Shown here in pieces: positions 25,627 to 32,722 of a DNA stretch of 39,144 nt; position 1 is the first letter of the stretch; each line of letters starts with the position of its first letter. The notes beneath the pieces were generated by a model. The model ran no database searches and was not told the DNA's origin. It saw only the letters and a program-made list of their open reading frames with translations. Location: the NCBI GenBank assembly GCA_009694305.1, contig SHVL01000024.1, positions 1 to 39,144 of the forward strand, in the 5' to 3' direction. The stretch comes from Thermoleophilia bacterium. Lineage in GTDB: Bacteria > Actinomycetota > Thermoleophilia > Gaiellales > Gaiellaceae. The position numbers and the translations under genes were made by a program.

Positions 25627-26886
25627 ATGGACGGGCAGGAGGTTCTCCGCGACATCGGCCTGATCCTCGGTGCCGGACTGCTGGCCGTGCCCGTCGCCTC
25701 GCTGTTGCGGATCCCCGTGATGCTCGTGCTCGTCGGGGCCGGTGCGCTCGTCGGACCCTCGGTGCTCGGTCTCGTCGAGAACCCACTCGACGGGATCGGC
25801 GCACAACTCGTATTCACCCTCGGTGTCTCGCTGATCCTCTTCCACGGAGGGCTCCAGATCTCGCTGCGCGTGATCTCGCGTACCGCGTTTGGGCTCGGCA
25901 TGCTCGTGCTGCCCGGCGTCCTCATCACCGCGCTGATCGTGGCCACCGTCACGGCGCCGGTGTTCTCCGTGCCGTTCACGGTGGCGCTGCTGATCGGCGC
26001 CGTCCTCGCTGCGACCGACCCGGCAATCCTGATCCCGTTGTTCGACCGCCTTCGTCTTCGCCCGAAGATCTCCCAGACCGTGATCGCCGAGTCGGCGTTC
26101 AACGACCCCACCGGCACGATTCTCGCGCTCGCCATCGCAACCGCCATCGTCGGTGGCGGTGTCACGATGTCCGACACCGTTCTCGCCTTCGGGCAGAGTC
26201 TTGCGGTCGGCGCGCTCTTCGGTCTCGGCGGCGGTCTTCTGCTGGCACTGATGCTCTCGTCCCACAGAGTCGGGATCTGGCGTGAGTCGCCCGCCGTTGC
26301 CGTCCTCGCGCTCGTCTCTCTCGAGTACTTCACTGCAGACGAGTTCGGCGGCTCGTCCTATCTTGCCGCGTTCGTGATGGGGCTCGTCGTCGCCAACTCC
26401 GATCTCTTCGGGATTCGTCGCAACCTGGAGCACACCGGCAAGCTCAAGTCGTTCATGGATCAGGTCGCGGAGATCGCGGTGCTTGCGGTGTTCGTCACGC
26501 TGGGAATCAACCTCCCCTTCGCGGCTCTGCAGGAGTATTTCTGGGGTGGGCTCGTCGTGATGGCCGTCTTCATCTTCGTGGCGCGTCCCGTGACCGTGCT
26601 CGTCTGTCTCCTGCCAGACCGGCGCGGCAAGTGGACATGGCAGGAGCTCGTGTTTCTCTCCTGGTGCCGTGAAACGGGGGTCGTTCCTGCGGCGATCGCG
26701 AGCCTGCTGCTCGCCCGGCAGGTCGAGGGTGCGGAGATCGCGGTCGCCCTCGTGGCGATGGCGATCGTCGTTACGCTCCTGCTCCAGGCGACGACTGCCG
26801 GCCTGCTCGCCCGTCGGCTCGGCCTCATCGAGGGTGGCGCCCTGCTTTCCTCGGGCCCGGAGGTCGGCCGGTCGCTGCGCGGGTGA
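25627..26886 (+). CDS. CPA-family sodium(potassium)/proton antiporter
   Basis: A 419-residue membrane protein with about 12 hydrophobic helices, of the cation:proton antiporter (NhaP/KefC-like) superfamily. The two unwound-helix motifs are present: AATDPAILIPLF near 128-139 and the ion-binding ESAFNDPTGTI near 155-165 (the ND pair). It ends soon after the last helix with no RCK/TrkA regulatory domain, so ion selectivity is not predictable. It starts 30 nt after the VOC gene; the upstream AAGGAG (25615-25620) is a plausible ribosome binding site. A gene remnant on the other strand begins at its 3' end. Confidence 0.92.
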   Translation: MDGQEVLRDIGLILGAGLLAVPVASLLRIPVMLVLVGAGALVGPSVLGLVENPLDGIGAQLVFTLGVSLILFHGGLQISLRVISRTAFGLGMLVLPGVLITALIVATVTAPVFSVPFTVALLIGAVLAATDPAILIPLFDRLRLRPKISQTVIAESAFNDPTGTILALAIATAIVGGGVTMSDTVLAFGQSLAVGALFGLGGGLLLALMLSSHRVGIWRESPAVAVLALVSLEYFTADEFGGSSYLAAFVMGLVVANSDLFGIRRNLEHTGKLKSFMDQVAEIAVLAVFVTLGINLPFAALQEYFWGGLVVMAVFIFVARPVTVLVCLLPDRRGKWTWQELVFLSWCRETGVVPAAIASLLLARQVEGAEIAVALVAMAIVVTLLLQATTAGLLARRLGLIEGGALLSSGPEVGRSLRG

Positions 26887-27365: not shown

Positions 27366-28109
27366 CTACGACTGGTTGTTCTGGTGGGTCTCCTGCGCCT
27401 TCGGCTCTCGGTCGGCGACGCGCCGGGCGGGGGTCGCTTCCACCTCGGCGAGGCTCAGATCGCGGGCTGCCCTGATGCGAATCAGGATCCGGTCACCGAC
27501 CTTGAGCCCCGATGCGTCGATCACCGTCGGGATGCGTTGCGCCCAGTGGAGGAACACCGTCTCCGGGCCCGTCGTGAACGTCTGGTCTGCGGGTTGCCCG
27601 ATCAGCAGCTTCAGTGCGTGCCGGTTCCCGCCCTTGACGGTGATCGTCACCTTGCCATCTGCGGTCGAGACGAGGACGCCACGGAAGAGGTACAGCTGTC
27701 CGGACGGCCTGTTCAACGTCTGCCCGCGGTCGGCCACCGTGGCGGCCGGCCTGGCCCTGATCGTGTCCAGGGTGGCCTCGCGATTCGAGCGGACGTTCAC
27801 CGTCACGTAGTCGTTCGTTGCGAGATCGGCGATGCCCACGACGGTGGGAATCCCGCCCGCCCACTTCAGGAAGACCGTCTTGTCGTCGGTGGCGAACGTC
27901 TGCACCTGACTCTGCCCGAGGAGCGAGTGGAGAGCCGGGCCGTTGCCGTTCTCGACGGAGATGGTCACCGAGGAGCCGGTCGTGCTCTGAACCTGTCCGA
28001 CGTAGCGGAAGAGTGTTTTGCCGCCCGGTCCTCCGGCGAATGCAGCGGTTGTCGCTACGAGAGCCGCCGCTACGGCGGCGAGGGCTACGATGAATGTCGA
28101 GCGCTTCAT
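27366..28109 (-). CDS. Secreted protein with two tandem beta-rich repeats
   Basis: A 247-residue protein with a Sec signal peptide (MKRSTFIVALAAVAAALVATTAAFAGG). The mature part is two ~100-residue repeats, each running from FRYVGQV/LFRGVLV through VTI(S/T)V...GN, a short Leu-rich segment, QTF(A/T)T, TVFL(K/H)WA, GIPTV/RIPTV and a final strand ending VADRE or similar. This is an internal duplication of a DUF5666-like beta module. It has a strong ribosome binding site (AGGAAGGA before ATG). It lies just after the histidine kinase gene with its own likely promoter: TAGTGT at 28147-28152 and a 23-bp direct-repeat box at 28183-28205 inside the kinase 3' end. It is inferred to be a target of the adjacent two-component system. 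Function is unknown. Confidence 0.8.
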   Translation of the reverse strand: MKRSTFIVALAAVAAALVATTAAFAGGPGGKTLFRYVGQVQSTTGSSVTISVENGNGPALHSLLGQSQVQTFATDDKTVFLKWAGGIPTVVGIADLATNDYVTVNVRSNREATLDTIRARPAATVADRGQTLNRPSGQLYLFRGVLVSTADGKVTITVKGGNRHALKLLIGQPADQTFTTGPETVFLHWAQRIPTVIDASGLKVGDRILIRIRAARDLSLAEVEATPARRVADREPKAQETHQNNQS

Positions 28110-28142
28110 GTCAATGTCCTTCCTGTTGGGTGCGATGTCATT

Positions 28143-29552
28143 TCAGACACTAGGAGGGACGTGTTCGCCGGATTTCAGCGCTGCGTAAGCCGTACGTAAA
28201 GCGTGCGGCCCGGAACTGTGGGCTGGAAGTGTGGCGGGGTCGAGCACGAGGCTGAATGTCGATCCGGCACCGGGCGTGCTCTCGACGGTGACCCGGCCAC
28301 CCATTGCGTCTGCCAGTTCCGCAACGATCGCGAGGCCGAGTCCCGTCCCGACGGGCCGGTCGGCGCCGTAGCGATCCCACAGATAGAAACGCTCGAACGC
28401 GCGCGCGAGATCATCGGCCGCAAGTCCGGGGCCGTCGTCTACGACCGACAGCCTTCCCGCGGCGGCCTCGATCACTACCGTTCCTCCGCGCGGGGTGCAG
28501 CGGATTGCGTTCTCGGTGAGGTTGGAGAGGGCCTGCAGGGTGCGGCCGGCATCGGCGATCGCTCCGGCACCCGGCTCGACCCTGCTTTCCAGGCATACCC
28601 CGTAGAGCCGGGCATCGTGGGCGTGTCGGGCGACTGCCTCGTCGGCCACGGAGCCGAGGTCAACGGGGCCGAGCACGACGTCGAACGAGCGGCGGCGGAG
28701 GCGGGCGAGGTCGAGAAGATCGCGAATCAGCCGTTCGAGGCGCCGGGTCTCCCGCTCGATCACCTCCCCGGCGCGCTCCGGTGACACGATGCCGTCGCTG
28801 AGGCCCTCGGCATGACCCCGGATAGCCGTCAGTGGCGTCTTCAGCTCGTGACTGACCGAGAGGAGGAACGCACGTTCGGCATCCTGCGCCCGATGGAGCT
28901 CCTGCGAGAGCTCGTTGAACGACGAGGCGAGCTGGCGGAGCTCCGTCGATCCCTCGACCGGGAGGGGATCAGGGTTGTCGCCCTCGGCCAACAGCCTGCT
29001 TGCCGCGGCAACGCGTGTCACGGGACGGGCGACGGCCCGGGCGAGCAGGAACGCGACACCCGCGGCAAGCAGAAGGCCGAGGAGGGCGGCGAGCGCCAGG
29101 CCCAGCAGAAAAGGCGTCCAGTCGGCCGACTGGTTACGAGCTGACCGCAGGAGCACGATCGCGTCGCCACCCGCGAGCCGGGCGGCGTACCGGAACGGCT
29201 CGCCGCGCACATCGACCGTGCCGTCCGCACGTCCGGTTTCCCGCAGCCGAGCTGCAGCCGGGCCGGGGAGGAGCAGCTCCGCCTGCACGGGCGTGAGGAT
29301 CGCGAGGCGTTCCTCCTCGGTGGCGAGAAACCGGCCGATCTCGCTGTTGCGCCGCGGTAACGGGCTCGCCACGTGTTGGGCTGCAATCAGGTTCACCTGG
29401 CGCGTCAGGGCACGTAGCGCGTCCTCGTCGAGCGAGCGCCTCGTCAGTGCCAGGCCGACGACGAGTACGACGACTATCGAGACGGCAACGGTGGCGGCCA
29501 TCCCCACGAAGAGCCGTGCTCGCAGCCTGCGCGGCCCGTGCAGGCGGCTCAA
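28143..29552 (-). CDS. Sensor histidine kinase (HAMP, HisKA, HATPase)
   Basis: A 469-residue inner-membrane kinase. The first membrane helix is near residues 15-37, an extracytoplasmic sensor region runs to ~145, and a second helix (LGLALAALLGLLLAAGVAFLL) follows. Then come a HAMP linker, the H-box FLLSVSHELKTPLTAIRGH with the phosphorylated His near 235, the N-box NLTENAIRCT, G1 VDDGPGLA, the F-box and G2 GTGLGLAIV. It belongs to the EnvZ/MprB-like class. Its start overlaps the response regulator stop by 4 nt. The small sensor domain and the two secreted proteins in the same locus suggest that it monitors the cell envelope (inference). The 3' end of the coding sequence contains a regulator box. 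Confidence 0.94.
   Translation of the reverse strand: MSRLHGPRRLRARLFVGMAATVAVSIVVVLVVGLALTRRSLDEDALRALTRQVNLIAAQHVASPLPRRNSEIGRFLATEEERLAILTPVQAELLLPGPAAARLRETGRADGTVDVRGEPFRYAARLAGGDAIVLLRSARNQSADWTPFLLGLALAALLGLLLAAGVAFLLARAVARPVTRVAAASRLLAEGDNPDPLPVEGSTELRQLASSFNELSQELHRAQDAERAFLLSVSHELKTPLTAIRGHAEGLSDGIVSPERAGEVIERETRRLERLIRDLLDLARLRRRSFDVVLGPVDLGSVADEAVARHAHDARLYGVCLESRVEPGAGAIADAGRTLQALSNLTENAIRCTPRGGTVVIEAAAGRLSVVDDGPGLAADDLARAFERFYLWDRYGADRPVGTGLGLAIVAELADAMGGRVTVESTPGAGSTFSLVLDPATLPAHSSGPHALRTAYAALKSGEHVPPSV
28183..28205 (-). promoter_or_regulatory. Predicted response-regulator box upstream of the secreted repeat protein
   Basis: On the minus strand this reads CACGCTTTAC-N5-GCTTACGC, a direct repeat of YTTAC with an 11-bp period as bound by OmpR/PhoB-type dimers. 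It is identical outside the 5-nt spacer to the box at 30826-30848. A TAGTGT -10-like element lies 30 bp downstream. Confidence 0.65.
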
Positions 29553-30232
29553 CTCGCGACCTTGTATCCCGAGCCACGCACGGTGCGGATGAGATCCGGC
29601 CGATCCAGCTTCCGCCGCAGCTGGGCGACGTGCACGTCCACCGTCCGCGTGCCTCCGGGAAACGAGAGGCCCCAGACGCGCTCGAGCAGGCGCTCGCGGG
29701 ACATCACGATGCCAGGGTGCGTGAGAAGGTATGCGAGGAGATCGAACTCCCTGCCGGTGAGCTCGATCTGCCGGCCGGCGACGGAGACCGTTCGACCACC
29801 GTGCTCGAGTGAGATGTCACCCGTGACGACCGTCGCTTCCGCCTCTTCGGGCTCGGCCCGGCGGAGCACCGCCCGGATCCGGGCAACGAGCTCACGCGGT
29901 GAGAACGGCTTCGTCACGTAGTCGTCGGCGCCGAGCTCGAGCCCTACGATGCGATCGACCTCCTCGTCGCGTGCGGTCACGATGACGACGGGGAGTGCCG
30001 AGCTTTCGCGGATGGCACGGCACAGGTCGAGGCCATCGGCATCGGGAAGCTGGAGGTCGAGGATGGCGAGGCGAAACTCGTTGCGCTCGAGCGCGAGCAG
30101 CGCGTCGGCGCCACGGGAGACCCACATCACTCCGAACCCCTCCCGCTCGAGGTAGGTGCGGACAAGCGTCGCGATGTCCTCCTCGTCCTCGACGAGCAGA
30201 ATCGTGCCGCGCCGAGGTGCCCCGGCGGTCAC
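29549..30232 (-). CDS. OmpR-family response regulator
   Basis: A 227-residue two-component regulator. The receiver domain (~10-125) has the acidic pair ED at 15-16, phospho-acceptor Asp59 (LAILDLQLPD) and the conserved Lys in VTKPFSPREL. The winged-helix DNA-binding domain of the Trans_reg_C type covers ~135-225 (ELTGREFDLLAYLLTHPG ... RTVDVHVAQLRRKL). It overlaps the upstream secreted-protein gene and the downstream kinase gene by 4 nt each, giving a tightly coupled three-gene operon. The two direct-repeat boxes nearby have the geometry expected for its dimer, so autoregulation is likely. GTG start. Confidence 0.95.
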   Translation of the reverse strand: MTAGAPRRGTILLVEDEEDIATLVRTYLEREGFGVMWVSRGADALLALERNEFRLAILDLQLPDADGLDLCRAIRESSALPVVIVTARDEEVDRIVGLELGADDYVTKPFSPRELVARIRAVLRRAEPEEAEATVVTGDISLEHGGRTVSVAGRQIELTGREFDLLAYLLTHPGIVMSRERLLERVWGLSFPGGTRTVDVHVAQLRRKLDRPDLIRTVRGSGYKVAS

Positions 30233-30783
30233 GCCCTCGCGCGCTTGAGCACGTTGACCGTCCTTGCCGTCTCGCCGTCCCGGTAGCGCACGACGACGAG
30301 CGCCCCCGGGCGGGCCTGCGACCAGGCTCCCGGAAGCCCGCGGAACCGGAAGACCGTTCCCACGTCGAGGGGAATCGTGGCGGTGCCCTCCGGGGTGTAA
30401 AGCGTGATCGCGCCCTTACCGAGCGAGGCCACGACCCCGCGACGGATGATGATGACGGGGCGACCGACGACCCGGATCACGACCGCGGCGTTTCCGCCGT
30501 CGTGCGTGACCGTCGCGACGTAGCCGGGCCGGATAGCGGTGAGCGTGGCGCGCCTGCCGTTGAGCTTCACTCTGGTTGCCGGTGAGATGGCGAACGAGGC
30601 AACGCTCCCGTCGAGGGCGCGCAACTCGATCCGGGCTGCGTCGATCGACTGGACGATGCCGCGGTCCTCCCCGAGGCCGGCGGTGGCTGCGGCCCCGACG
30701 GCGGGGAGGGCGAGAGCCAGAACGGTGCCCGCGACCATCAGCACGGGCAGCAGGCGCAGCAGGCGCAGCGGGCGGAGTGTCAT
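30229..30783 (-). CDS. Secreted DUF5666-like protein leading the two-component operon
   Basis: A 184-residue protein with an N-terminal signal peptide or anchor (LLRLLPVLMVAGTVLALALPAVGAAA) followed by a beta-rich domain: GIVQSIDAARIELRALDGSVASFAISPATRVKLNG and a second similar unit. This pattern is typical of DUF5666-like modules and related in style to the repeats of the secreted protein at 27366. It is the first gene of the operon and overlaps the regulator gene by 4 nt, so the periplasmic or surface protein and its regulator are translationally coupled. It could be a sensed partner or an accessory of the kinase (inference). The operon promoter region holds a regulator box at 30826-30848. 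Confidence 0.75.
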   Translation of the reverse strand: MTLRPLRLLRLLPVLMVAGTVLALALPAVGAAATAGLGEDRGIVQSIDAARIELRALDGSVASFAISPATRVKLNGRRATLTAIRPGYVATVTHDGGNAAVVIRVVGRPVIIIRRGVVASLGKGAITLYTPEGTATIPLDVGTVFRFRGLPGAWSQARPGALVVVRYRDGETARTVNVLKRARA

Positions 30784-30825
30784 GCGTGCATTCTTACGGG
30801 TATCGGTTAGCCCGTGATGGTGCCG

Positions 30826-30848
30826 GCGTAAGCGCCGTGTAAAGCGTG
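30826..30848 (-). promoter_or_regulatory. Predicted response-regulator box upstream of the two-component operon
   Basis: On the minus strand this reads CACGCTTTAC-N5-GCTTACGC, matching the box at 28183-28205 in all 18 positions outside the spacer. It lies 30 bp before an AAGAAT -10-like hexamer (30790-30795), the same distance as at the other box. It also sits 29 bp from the -10-like hexamer of divergent typA. Confidence 0.65.
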
Positions 30849-30877
30849 TTCTCGGCGGTGTTCGGAGGCTCGGCGGC

Positions 30878-30883
30878 TACCCT
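30878..30883 (+). promoter_or_regulatory. -10-like hexamer for typA
   Basis: TACCCT lies 6 nt before GTG 30890, the same hexamer and spacing as at the M20 and acyl-CoA synthetase genes. Confidence 0.45.
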
Positions 30884-30889
30884 CTTCCG

Positions 30890-32722
30890 GTGTCCACGCG
30901 CGATGCCATCCGGAACGTCGCCATCGTGGCGCACGTTGACCACGGGAAAACAACCCTCGTTGACGCCATGTTGTGGCAGTCCGGGACGTTCCGGGCCAAC
31001 CAGGCCGTTGCCGAGCGGGTGATGGACTCGATGGATCTCGAACGCGAGAAGGGCATCACGATCCTCGCGAAGAACACCGCGGTCAGGTACGGCGCCACGA
31101 AGATCAACATCATCGACACGCCGGGCCACGCAGATTTCGGCGGCGAGGTGGAGCGCGGCCTGCGCATGGTAGACGGCGTTCTGCTGCTCGTTGACGCGAG
31201 CGAGGGGCCGCTGCCACAGACGCGGTTCGTCCTCCGTAAGGCGCTCGAGGCGCACCTGCGCGTGATCCTCGTCGTCAACAAGGTCGATCGACCCGATGCG
31301 CGGGTGGAGGAGGTCGTGAACGAGGTCTACGAGCTCTTTCTCGATCTCGACGCCGACGAGAGCCAGATCGAGTTCCCCATCGTCTACTGCAATGCGAAGG
31401 CCGGGAAGGCCGGGCTGAAGGTCGATGAGCTCGCAGACGACCTGCGGCCGCTGCTCGACCTCCTGCTCGAGACGATTCCCGCGCCGACCTACGAGGAGGG
31501 CCATCCCCTGCAGGCCCTCGTCACGAATCTCGATGCCTCGTCGTACGTTGGCCGGCTGGCAATCTGCCGGGTCCGGAACGGCACGATCAGCAAGGGCCAG
31601 CAGGTCGCCTGGTGCCGGGCCGACGGCACCGTCGAACGCGCCAGGGTCACCGAGCTCTATGTCACCGAGGCGCTCGATCGCGTCGAGGCCGCCGACGCCG
31701 GGCCGGGCGACATCGTTGCGGTTGCCGGAATCCCCGAGGTGACGATCGGCGAGACGCTCGCCGATTTCGACGACCCGCGGCCACTGCCGGTGGAGCAGGT
31801 AGACGAGCCGTCGCTCTCGATGACGTTCGGGATCAATACCTCGCCGCTCGCCGGCCTCGAGGGCTCGCGACTCACGGCGAGCCAGGTCAAGAGCAGGCTC
31901 GACGCGGAGCTGATCGGCAACGTCTCGCTCCGGGTGCTCCCGACGGAGCGACCGGACACCTGGGAGGTGCAGGGCCGTGGCGAGCTGCAGCTCGCCGTTC
32001 TCGTCGAGTTGATGAGGCGCGAGGGTTTCGAGATCACCGTCGGCAAGCCGCAGGTTGTGACGAAGGAGGTCAACGGCAAGGTGCACGAGCCGGTCGAGCG
32101 GCTCGCCATCGACGCGCCCGAGGAGTACATCGGTGTGCTCACGCAGTTGCTCGCCCTCCGGAAGGGCCGGATGGAGCAGATGGTCAACCACGGCACCGGC
32201 TGGGTCCGGCTCGAGTACCTCGTGCCGGCACGCGCCCTGATCGGCTTCCGCACGGAGTTTCTCACCGAGACGCGTGGCACCGGGATCCTGCACCACGTTT
32301 TCGACCGCTACGAGCCCTGGTACGGCGAGCTTCGCACGCGGCCGAGTGGCTCTCTCGTCGCCGACCGGCAGGGCCCGACGACCGGATTTGCGATCTCGAA
32401 CCTGCAGGAGCGCGGAAAGCTCTTTGTCGGCCCCGGGGTCGGCGTCTACGAGGGGATGATCGTGGGCGAGAACGCGCGCTCCGAGGACATGGACGTGAAC
32501 GCGACCAAGGAGAAGAAGCTCACGAACATGCGCGCGTCGAGCTCGGATGAGCTCGTGCGGCTGATCCCGCCAACTCTGCTCTCGCTCGAGCAGGCGCTCG
32601 AGTTCATCCGTGAGGACGAGTGTGTGGAGGTAACGCCCATCTCGATCCGGTTGCGCAAGGTCGAGCTGGCAGCGGGGAAGCGGCAGCAGCTCTCGAGCCG
32701 GAAGGCTCGAGGGCTGGCGTAG
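30890..32722 (+). CDS. typA: Ribosome-associated GTPase TypA/BipA
   Basis: A 610-residue translational GTPase of the TypA/BipA family, which binds 70S ribosomes and helps 50S assembly and stress growth. G1 AHVDHGKTT is at 14-22, G2 is in the EREKGITIL switch, G3 [13 protein letters not shown]4 NKVDRPDA and G5 CNAKAG. Domains II, III, V and the BipA-specific C-terminal domain follow (ending near [21 protein letters not shown]). Length fits the family (~605-615). The GTG start is supported by TACCCT six nt upstream. It is divergent from the two-component operon. Confidence 0.97.

Follow-up and report, generated by a model that had tools for sequence, protein, structure and literature searches.

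We analyzed a DNA window of 39,144 nucleotides (nt), contig SHVL01000024.1 of a Thermoleophilia bacterium of the family Gaiellaceae (assembly GCA_009694305.1), which carries two identical direct-repeat boxes around the genes of a two-component system. Our comparisons argue strongly that these boxes are the operators of the OmpR/PhoB-type regulator encoded between them, which would activate its own operon and genes of secreted proteins. An initial annotation of the window had proposed the two boxes as a mini-regulon of this system. On the minus strand, the gene order is sec1, regulator, kinase, sec2, and the TypA/BipA gene lies in the opposite direction. The elements in question are the following.

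30826-30848, minus strand: operator box 1, exact, with TTTAC at 30843-30839 (slot 1) and CTTAC at 30832-30828 (slot 2), kept upstream of the orthologous operons
30806-30821, minus strand: presumed slots 3 and 4 of box 1, ACCAT at 30821-30817 (weak) and CTAAC at 30810-30806, continuing the period of 11 base pairs (bp)
30790-30795, minus strand: -10-like hexamer AAGAAT, starting 12 nt 5' of the sec1 ATG, with a predicted leaderless start
30229-30783, minus strand: sec1, predicted secreted beta protein of 184 amino acids with two barrel-like repeats
29549-30232, minus strand: OmpR/PhoB-type response regulator of 227 amino acids (receiver and Trans_reg_C domains)
28143-29552, minus strand: histidine kinase of 469 amino acids (HAMP, HisKA and HATPase_c domains)
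28183-28205, minus strand: operator box 2, inside the kinase 3' end, with TTTAC at 28200-28196 and CTTAC at 28189-28185
28163-28178, minus strand: presumed slots 3 and 4 of promoter 2, CTGAA at 28178-28174 and CGAAC at 28167-28163
28147-28152, minus strand: -10-like hexamer TAGTGT of the sec2 promoter, positioned by a scan for the box plus NANNNT
27366-28109, minus strand: sec2, predicted secreted protein of 247 amino acids with two OB-like repeats, DUF5666-like below the Pfam cut-off

A search of the window for the pattern CACGCTTTAC-N5-GCTTACGC returned two sites without mismatch, 30826-30848(-) and 28183-28205(-), just where the initial annotation had placed them, and all 18 non-spacer positions agree between the two (18/18). 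The other geometrical claims of that annotation are also correct: the YTTAC half-sites within each box follow each other at a step of 11 bp, box 2 sits within the 3' end of the kinase open reading frame (ORF; 28143-29552), and the hexamers AAGAAT (30795-30790) and TAGTGT (28152-28147) each lie exactly 30 bp from the box as then defined, or 32 nt when counted from where the second YTTAC ends. We rejected the idea that the 18/18 match arose when a promoter was duplicated whole, as the flanks of the two boxes differ by eye. A lone CACGCTTTACAC at 30395-30406(-), in the sec1 coding sequence, corresponds to the first half of box 1 and is followed by no second half-site.

None of 100 dinucleotide shuffles of the window contained a match to the box pattern, even with up to 3 mismatches allowed. 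In the organism's own genome (2,467,862 bases, 98 contigs), only the two window boxes matched with at most 2 mismatches, so that random genome matches, which the initial annotation had named as a possible objection, are few. With at most 3 mismatches there were 3 matches, the third at C97:24551, versus 2 for the reversed control. The reduced core YTTAC-N6-YTTAC gave 4 exact matches versus 1 for its reversed control; when NANNNT was added at 32 nt, the 3 exact matches were the two window boxes and C21:6744, and 6 matches versus 2 for the control were obtained with at most 1 mismatch. A core match at C15:43878 was set aside as chance: it lies just beyond the 3' end of an opposite-strand ORF of 373 amino acids and reads into it antisense.

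We then turned to 103 genomes of the family, among which genomes of the same genus are not independent. The 47 best regulator matches (at least 254 bits) make up clade A, which was divided by score, without a tree, from clade B, represented by 45 loci sampled from the 84 remaining matches. In the 1200 nt upstream, 38 of the 47 clade A operons have the exact core on the gene strand and 45 have a form with at most 1 mismatch; the boxes are thus kept upstream of the orthologues. Other spacings between the half-sites (k = 0-12 except 6) gave 0-1 exact matches and 0-4 with at most 1 mismatch, and the opposite strand at k = 6 gave 0 and 2, respectively. Matches with at most 1 mismatch at k = 17 and k = 28, which presumably pair a fourth slot with slots 2 and 1, were seen in 14 and 17 of the 47 operons. 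First-order Markov simulated sequence yielded a mean of 0.005 of 47 and a maximum of 1. Over 37 genomes, the core occurred 127 times versus 49 for the reversed pattern, and the 80 loci of distant regulators had no gene-strand box and only 2 opposite-strand matches. A secreted-like ORF follows the box in 45/45 clade A and 35/35 clade B boxed operons, these ORFs having been picked by their hydrophobic start, so that this is not an independent test. Extra core sites stand at other genes of relatives (18 loci), most of them without the -10 geometry, G004:C78 being a possible target. One genome, G035, holds two clade A modules (L040, L042) with exact boxes at both.

The second window target, sec2, has homologues in 26/103 family genomes. 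Partial or weak matches were omitted, and upstream of the remaining 22 of 28 (400 nt) the core was exact in 14/22 and present with at most 1 mismatch in 22/22. Other spacings gave at most 1 exact match and at most 2 with up to 1 mismatch, and the opposite strand at the right spacing gave 0. In several genera the sec2 homologue lies on a different contig from the operon and the box is still present. Co-occurrence of sec2 with a clade A regulator, in 17/24 genomes, is only moderate (Fisher p = 0.011); the genome lists for this test were typed by hand from the regulator and sec2 search results, with G006 and G023 (weak partial matches) omitted from the 26 sec2 genomes, and with the genomes of L226, L229 and L235, clade B loci with a clade-A-type first gene, counted as clade A. 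Taken comparatively, these boxes at operons and at sec2 support the autoregulation and sec2 control that the initial annotation had predicted.

Among 43 clade A kinases, 8 carry an exact box at the 3' end, or 11 if one mismatch is tolerated in the presence of a -10. In the window and in G001, this box is followed by sec2. Secreted proteins with RTX-type repeats stand there instead of sec2 in five relatives (L186, L191, L194, L039, L045), identified by a PF00353 match in G013 and G018 and judged from visible repeats alone in G093, G094 and G063. A different secreted protein follows in G081 and a transporter-like ORF (by eye) in G062, and our ORF script detected no secreted ORF in G020 and G061. 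The G001 kinase terminates within its box, whereas the window kinase continues through it; conservation at the kinase 3' end would thus seem to act on the DNA and not on the protein. Coding constraint as the cause of this box was rejected on the same ground.

This system is not the only user of the box type. At k = 6, the core was exact in 12/45 clade B loci and present with at most 1 mismatch in 35/45, and clade B regulators belong to a paralogous module, hereafter module B. The sites found in the organism's own genome are listed below.

C45:24878-24931 (L326) and C45:25447-26109: module B, made up of a secreted protein, a regulator and a kinase; its box has 1 mismatch and is followed by GATAAT at 32 nt
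C21:6744-6797 (L055, L322): C21 box, exact, with AAGACT at 32 nt
C59:7828-7881 (L329): further candidate target, a secreted ORF of 259 amino acids behind CTCAC-N6-CTTAC
C17 (L328): further candidate target, a C21 paralogue behind three 11-bp half-site-like elements and GAGACT

The C21 product is a secreted protein, anchored in the membrane by its C terminus as judged by eye, whose homologues (E ≤ 1e-5) are found in 68/103 family genomes. A box with at most 1 mismatch precedes 25 of the 30 tested, 11 of them exact; it is present in G003 and G006, where no clade A regulator was detected, and in G002, which had no regulator match at the search cut-off. One could wonder whether the operators are real and chiefly read by the module B regulator (C45) or another OmpR-type protein, the regulator of the window playing a minor or shared part. 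The shared YTTAC-N6-YTTAC frame of the module B promoters would agree with this, as would the sec2 genomes without a detected clade A regulator (7/24). However, the two modules use distinguishable versions of the box. A matrix classifier trained on 31 A and 32 B operon promoters assigned 62/63 correctly in leave-one-out, a figure inflated by related sequences; the genus g31 (14 operons) was excluded from training, and L226, L229 and L235, kept in the 45-locus scan, were dropped from the alignment and the classifier. Outside the training set, 21/22 sec2 promoters were A-like and 18/20 C21 promoters B-like, and in the organism's own genome the sec2 box scored +7.5 and the C21 box -17.6. The regulators also differ in the presumed recognition helix: at position 203, 12 of 15 clade A proteins have Ala and 3 have Gly, versus Arg in 5/5 of clade B, and position 194 is Gly in 15/15 and Asp in 5/5, which makes both residues candidates for specificity determinants. 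Reading of the boxes chiefly by another regulator is therefore quite improbable, and the mini-regulon of the initial annotation is supported for its two targets, not for exclusive use of the box type.

The operator itself appears to be larger than the initial annotation had it. Promoters were aligned by anchoring on slots 1-2 only, in four promoter sets with g31 kept separate; the C21 set of 25 boxed promoters was reduced to 20, here and for the classifier, by removing 5 whose box lay in an atypical place without a -10. Further half-site-like signal was visible at columns +6 to +10 and +17 to +21 (slots 3 and 4). The two-half-site box is exact as far as slots 1-2 go, and the whole operator appears to comprise four half-sites, one every 11 bp. 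NANNNT peaked at +32, in 83% of 29 clade A promoters (g31 excluded), 94% of 32 of clade B, 95% of 22 of sec2 and 95% of 20 of C21, the removals favouring this last figure. Taking the conserved hexamer as the -10 would put the slots at about -60, -49, -38 and -27. When 28050-30950 was scanned with the consensus, no sigma-70-type promoter having both hexamers was detected. For leaderless genes, TANNNT signals 12 nt from the start have been reported (excerpt of PMC3160421), and 12 nt is also the distance from the sec1 -10-like hexamer to the ATG, AAGAAT itself being without the leading T.

The fixed distance to the -10-like hexamer could also be expected if the boxes were a promoter class of an alternative sigma factor. 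This, or a coding coincidence in the kinase gene, is very hard to credit: the 11-bp half-site repeats stand upstream of the -35 position, the -10-like hexamer of g31 is displaced by roughly one turn of the helix, the boxes go with these regulators and have no gene-strand counterpart near the 80 distant ones, and box 2 is retained despite differing kinase ends.

We infer from these comparisons of sequence the following mechanism. The sensor kinase would phosphorylate the regulator, whose dimers would bind the direct repeats, with YTTAC every 11 bp. With the hexamer taken as the -10, the strong half-sites would cover about -60 to -45 and the weaker pair about -38 to -23, ending 10 bp before the hexamer. 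Because no -35 hexamer was found at the usual distance, the bound regulator would probably recruit RNA polymerase in the manner of PhoB and activate both promoters: that of the sec1-regulator-kinase operon, giving positive autoregulation with a leaderless start, and likewise that of sec2. The same boxes could be repressor sites of this regulator, or act in both directions, since position alone does not fix the sign and slots 3 and 4 would fall within the promoter. We consider this unlikely: besides the missing -35 hexamer, an activator would be expected to bind upstream of the -35 position, which is where the strong half-sites lie.

Several observations nevertheless weigh against operators of the regulator encoded between them, used in this way at all these loci. 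In the g31 operons, the hexamer fits best at offsets of 22 and 21, closer by roughly a helical turn, and slots 3-4 have no standout signal. CTGAC, a frequent form of slot 4, looks like a portion of a -35 hexamer, although it stands at only some 10 nt from the -10-like one. The operon box exceeds 1 mismatch in G013 and G094 (2-mismatch forms lie upstream), both of which have an exact box at the kinase 3' end; at that end, the spacing k = 5 gives 2 exact matches versus 8, and other wrong spacings 0. In clade B, wrong spacings give 0 exact matches but up to 9/45 with at most 1 mismatch (k = 0), and 10/45 loci have no box at this level, one of them with only 455 nt available. The G001 sec2 promoter is B-like (score -3.2). 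Lastly, the 7/24 sec2-bearing genomes without a detected clade A regulator may be served by another regulator or have incomplete assemblies. The words "self-contained" and "envelope response" of the initial annotation go beyond what these comparisons show.

The regulator scores above both Pfam cut-offs (receiver 102.1 bits against 30.2, Trans_reg_C 94.9 against 26.2), and a HAMP-HisKA-HATPase kinase adjoins it, as in an OmpR/PhoB-type two-component system. Its phospho-acceptor and acid pocket residues D16, D59, T86 and K108 are invariant in 20 regulators. Every NCBIfam match listed (25 of 108 matched models) was below cut-off, which leaves the protein without equivalog status as PhoB (TIGR02154, 225 bits versus 296.2), MtrA (NF040689, 216.6 versus 300) or PmrA/BasR (NF007928, 165.1 versus 330); the CreB model gave 228 bits for a cut-off of 273.

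A mainly beta structure is predicted for both secreted proteins, as the initial annotation had proposed. The sec1 model has two barrel-like beta repeats (mean predicted local distance difference test, pLDDT, 87.3; predicted template modelling score, pTM, 0.60), and its fold search gave weak OB/cold-shock barrel matches (template modelling score, TM, by target ≤ 0.35), too weak to indicate a function. The sec2 model shows two OB-like repeats (mean pLDDT 85.2, pTM 0.70). Its fold search returned no match at E ≤ 0.001, the best being CusF (E 2e-3, TM by target 0.70-0.76) followed by SilF (E 0.08), a likeness that would be a lead rather than a result. The DUF5666 cut-off (PF18914, 27 bits) was missed by sec2 (20.6) and by its G001 homologue (24.7); 2 of 28 sec1-type proteins matched this model at E ≤ 0.01, the window sec1 being absent among the matches listed, and neither sec1 nor sec2 attains a Pfam cut-off. 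In-frame stop codons occur in the sec2 homologues L266 and L278 and in the regulator L179 (G124, G115, G108), by assembly error or decay. A sodium/proton exchanger gene (25627-26886, plus strand) lies near module A, the module of the window, with weaker relatives near module B in G003 and G007 (L050, L051).

From these data, a regulator family in Thermoleophilia gains an operator defined to the base, a pair of promoter targets and a paralogue for comparison. How operators diverge after a duplication can now be tested directly with the two box versions, A and B, and the candidate specificity residues. The exchange of secreted genes behind a promoter that is itself retained hints at a trait that their products share. 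As a speculative and rather doubtful extension, Thermoleophilia would possess two paralogous autoregulated modules with diverged operators, the kinase-3'-end promoter of module A would serve as a fixed slot for exchanged unrelated secreted proteins (OB-repeat, RTX calcium-binding repeat, others), and the first gene of each operon could belong to a sensing loop, for instance if its product bound a cation or envelope ligand extracellularly and reported it to the kinase.

Among titles and abstract beginnings of the open-licence literature searched we found no paper on this system, and at title and abstract level none on a two-component binding site in Thermoleophilia. Parallels can be drawn with regulators of other bacteria, for which the sources cited are excerpts. 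The Pho box of E. coli PhoB is likewise read by an OmpR/PhoB-type regulator and built of 11-nt direct repeat units (PMC4415409), and PhoB promoters lack a canonical -35 (PMC4496699), as do the window promoters. Unlike the Pho box, with its CTGTCAT, the half-site here is YTTAC, and the linked genes encode secreted proteins rather than phosphate functions. The PmrA/BasR box, CTTAAG and NTTAAT arranged head to tail with 5 bp between them, has the same 11-bp step (PMC3973317), whereas our core is TTAC instead of TTAA and four slots are presumed. Read on the other strand, the box becomes GTAAR-N6-GTAAR, close to the GTnAC-n6-GTnAC of GlnR from Streptomyces venezuelae; in S. coelicolor, GlnR sites form an a-b-a-b array of four (both PMC10704036). 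MtrA also binds direct repeats, with 5 nt between them (PMC5650626). The regulons of GlnR and MtrA concern nitrogen or development, unlike the few secreted-protein genes found here. The nearest solved structure to the regulator, by sequence similarity only, is RegX3 (2oqr, 194.5 bits). The type of circuit is thus familiar, and the new details are its operator, its partner module and its exchangeable secreted gene.

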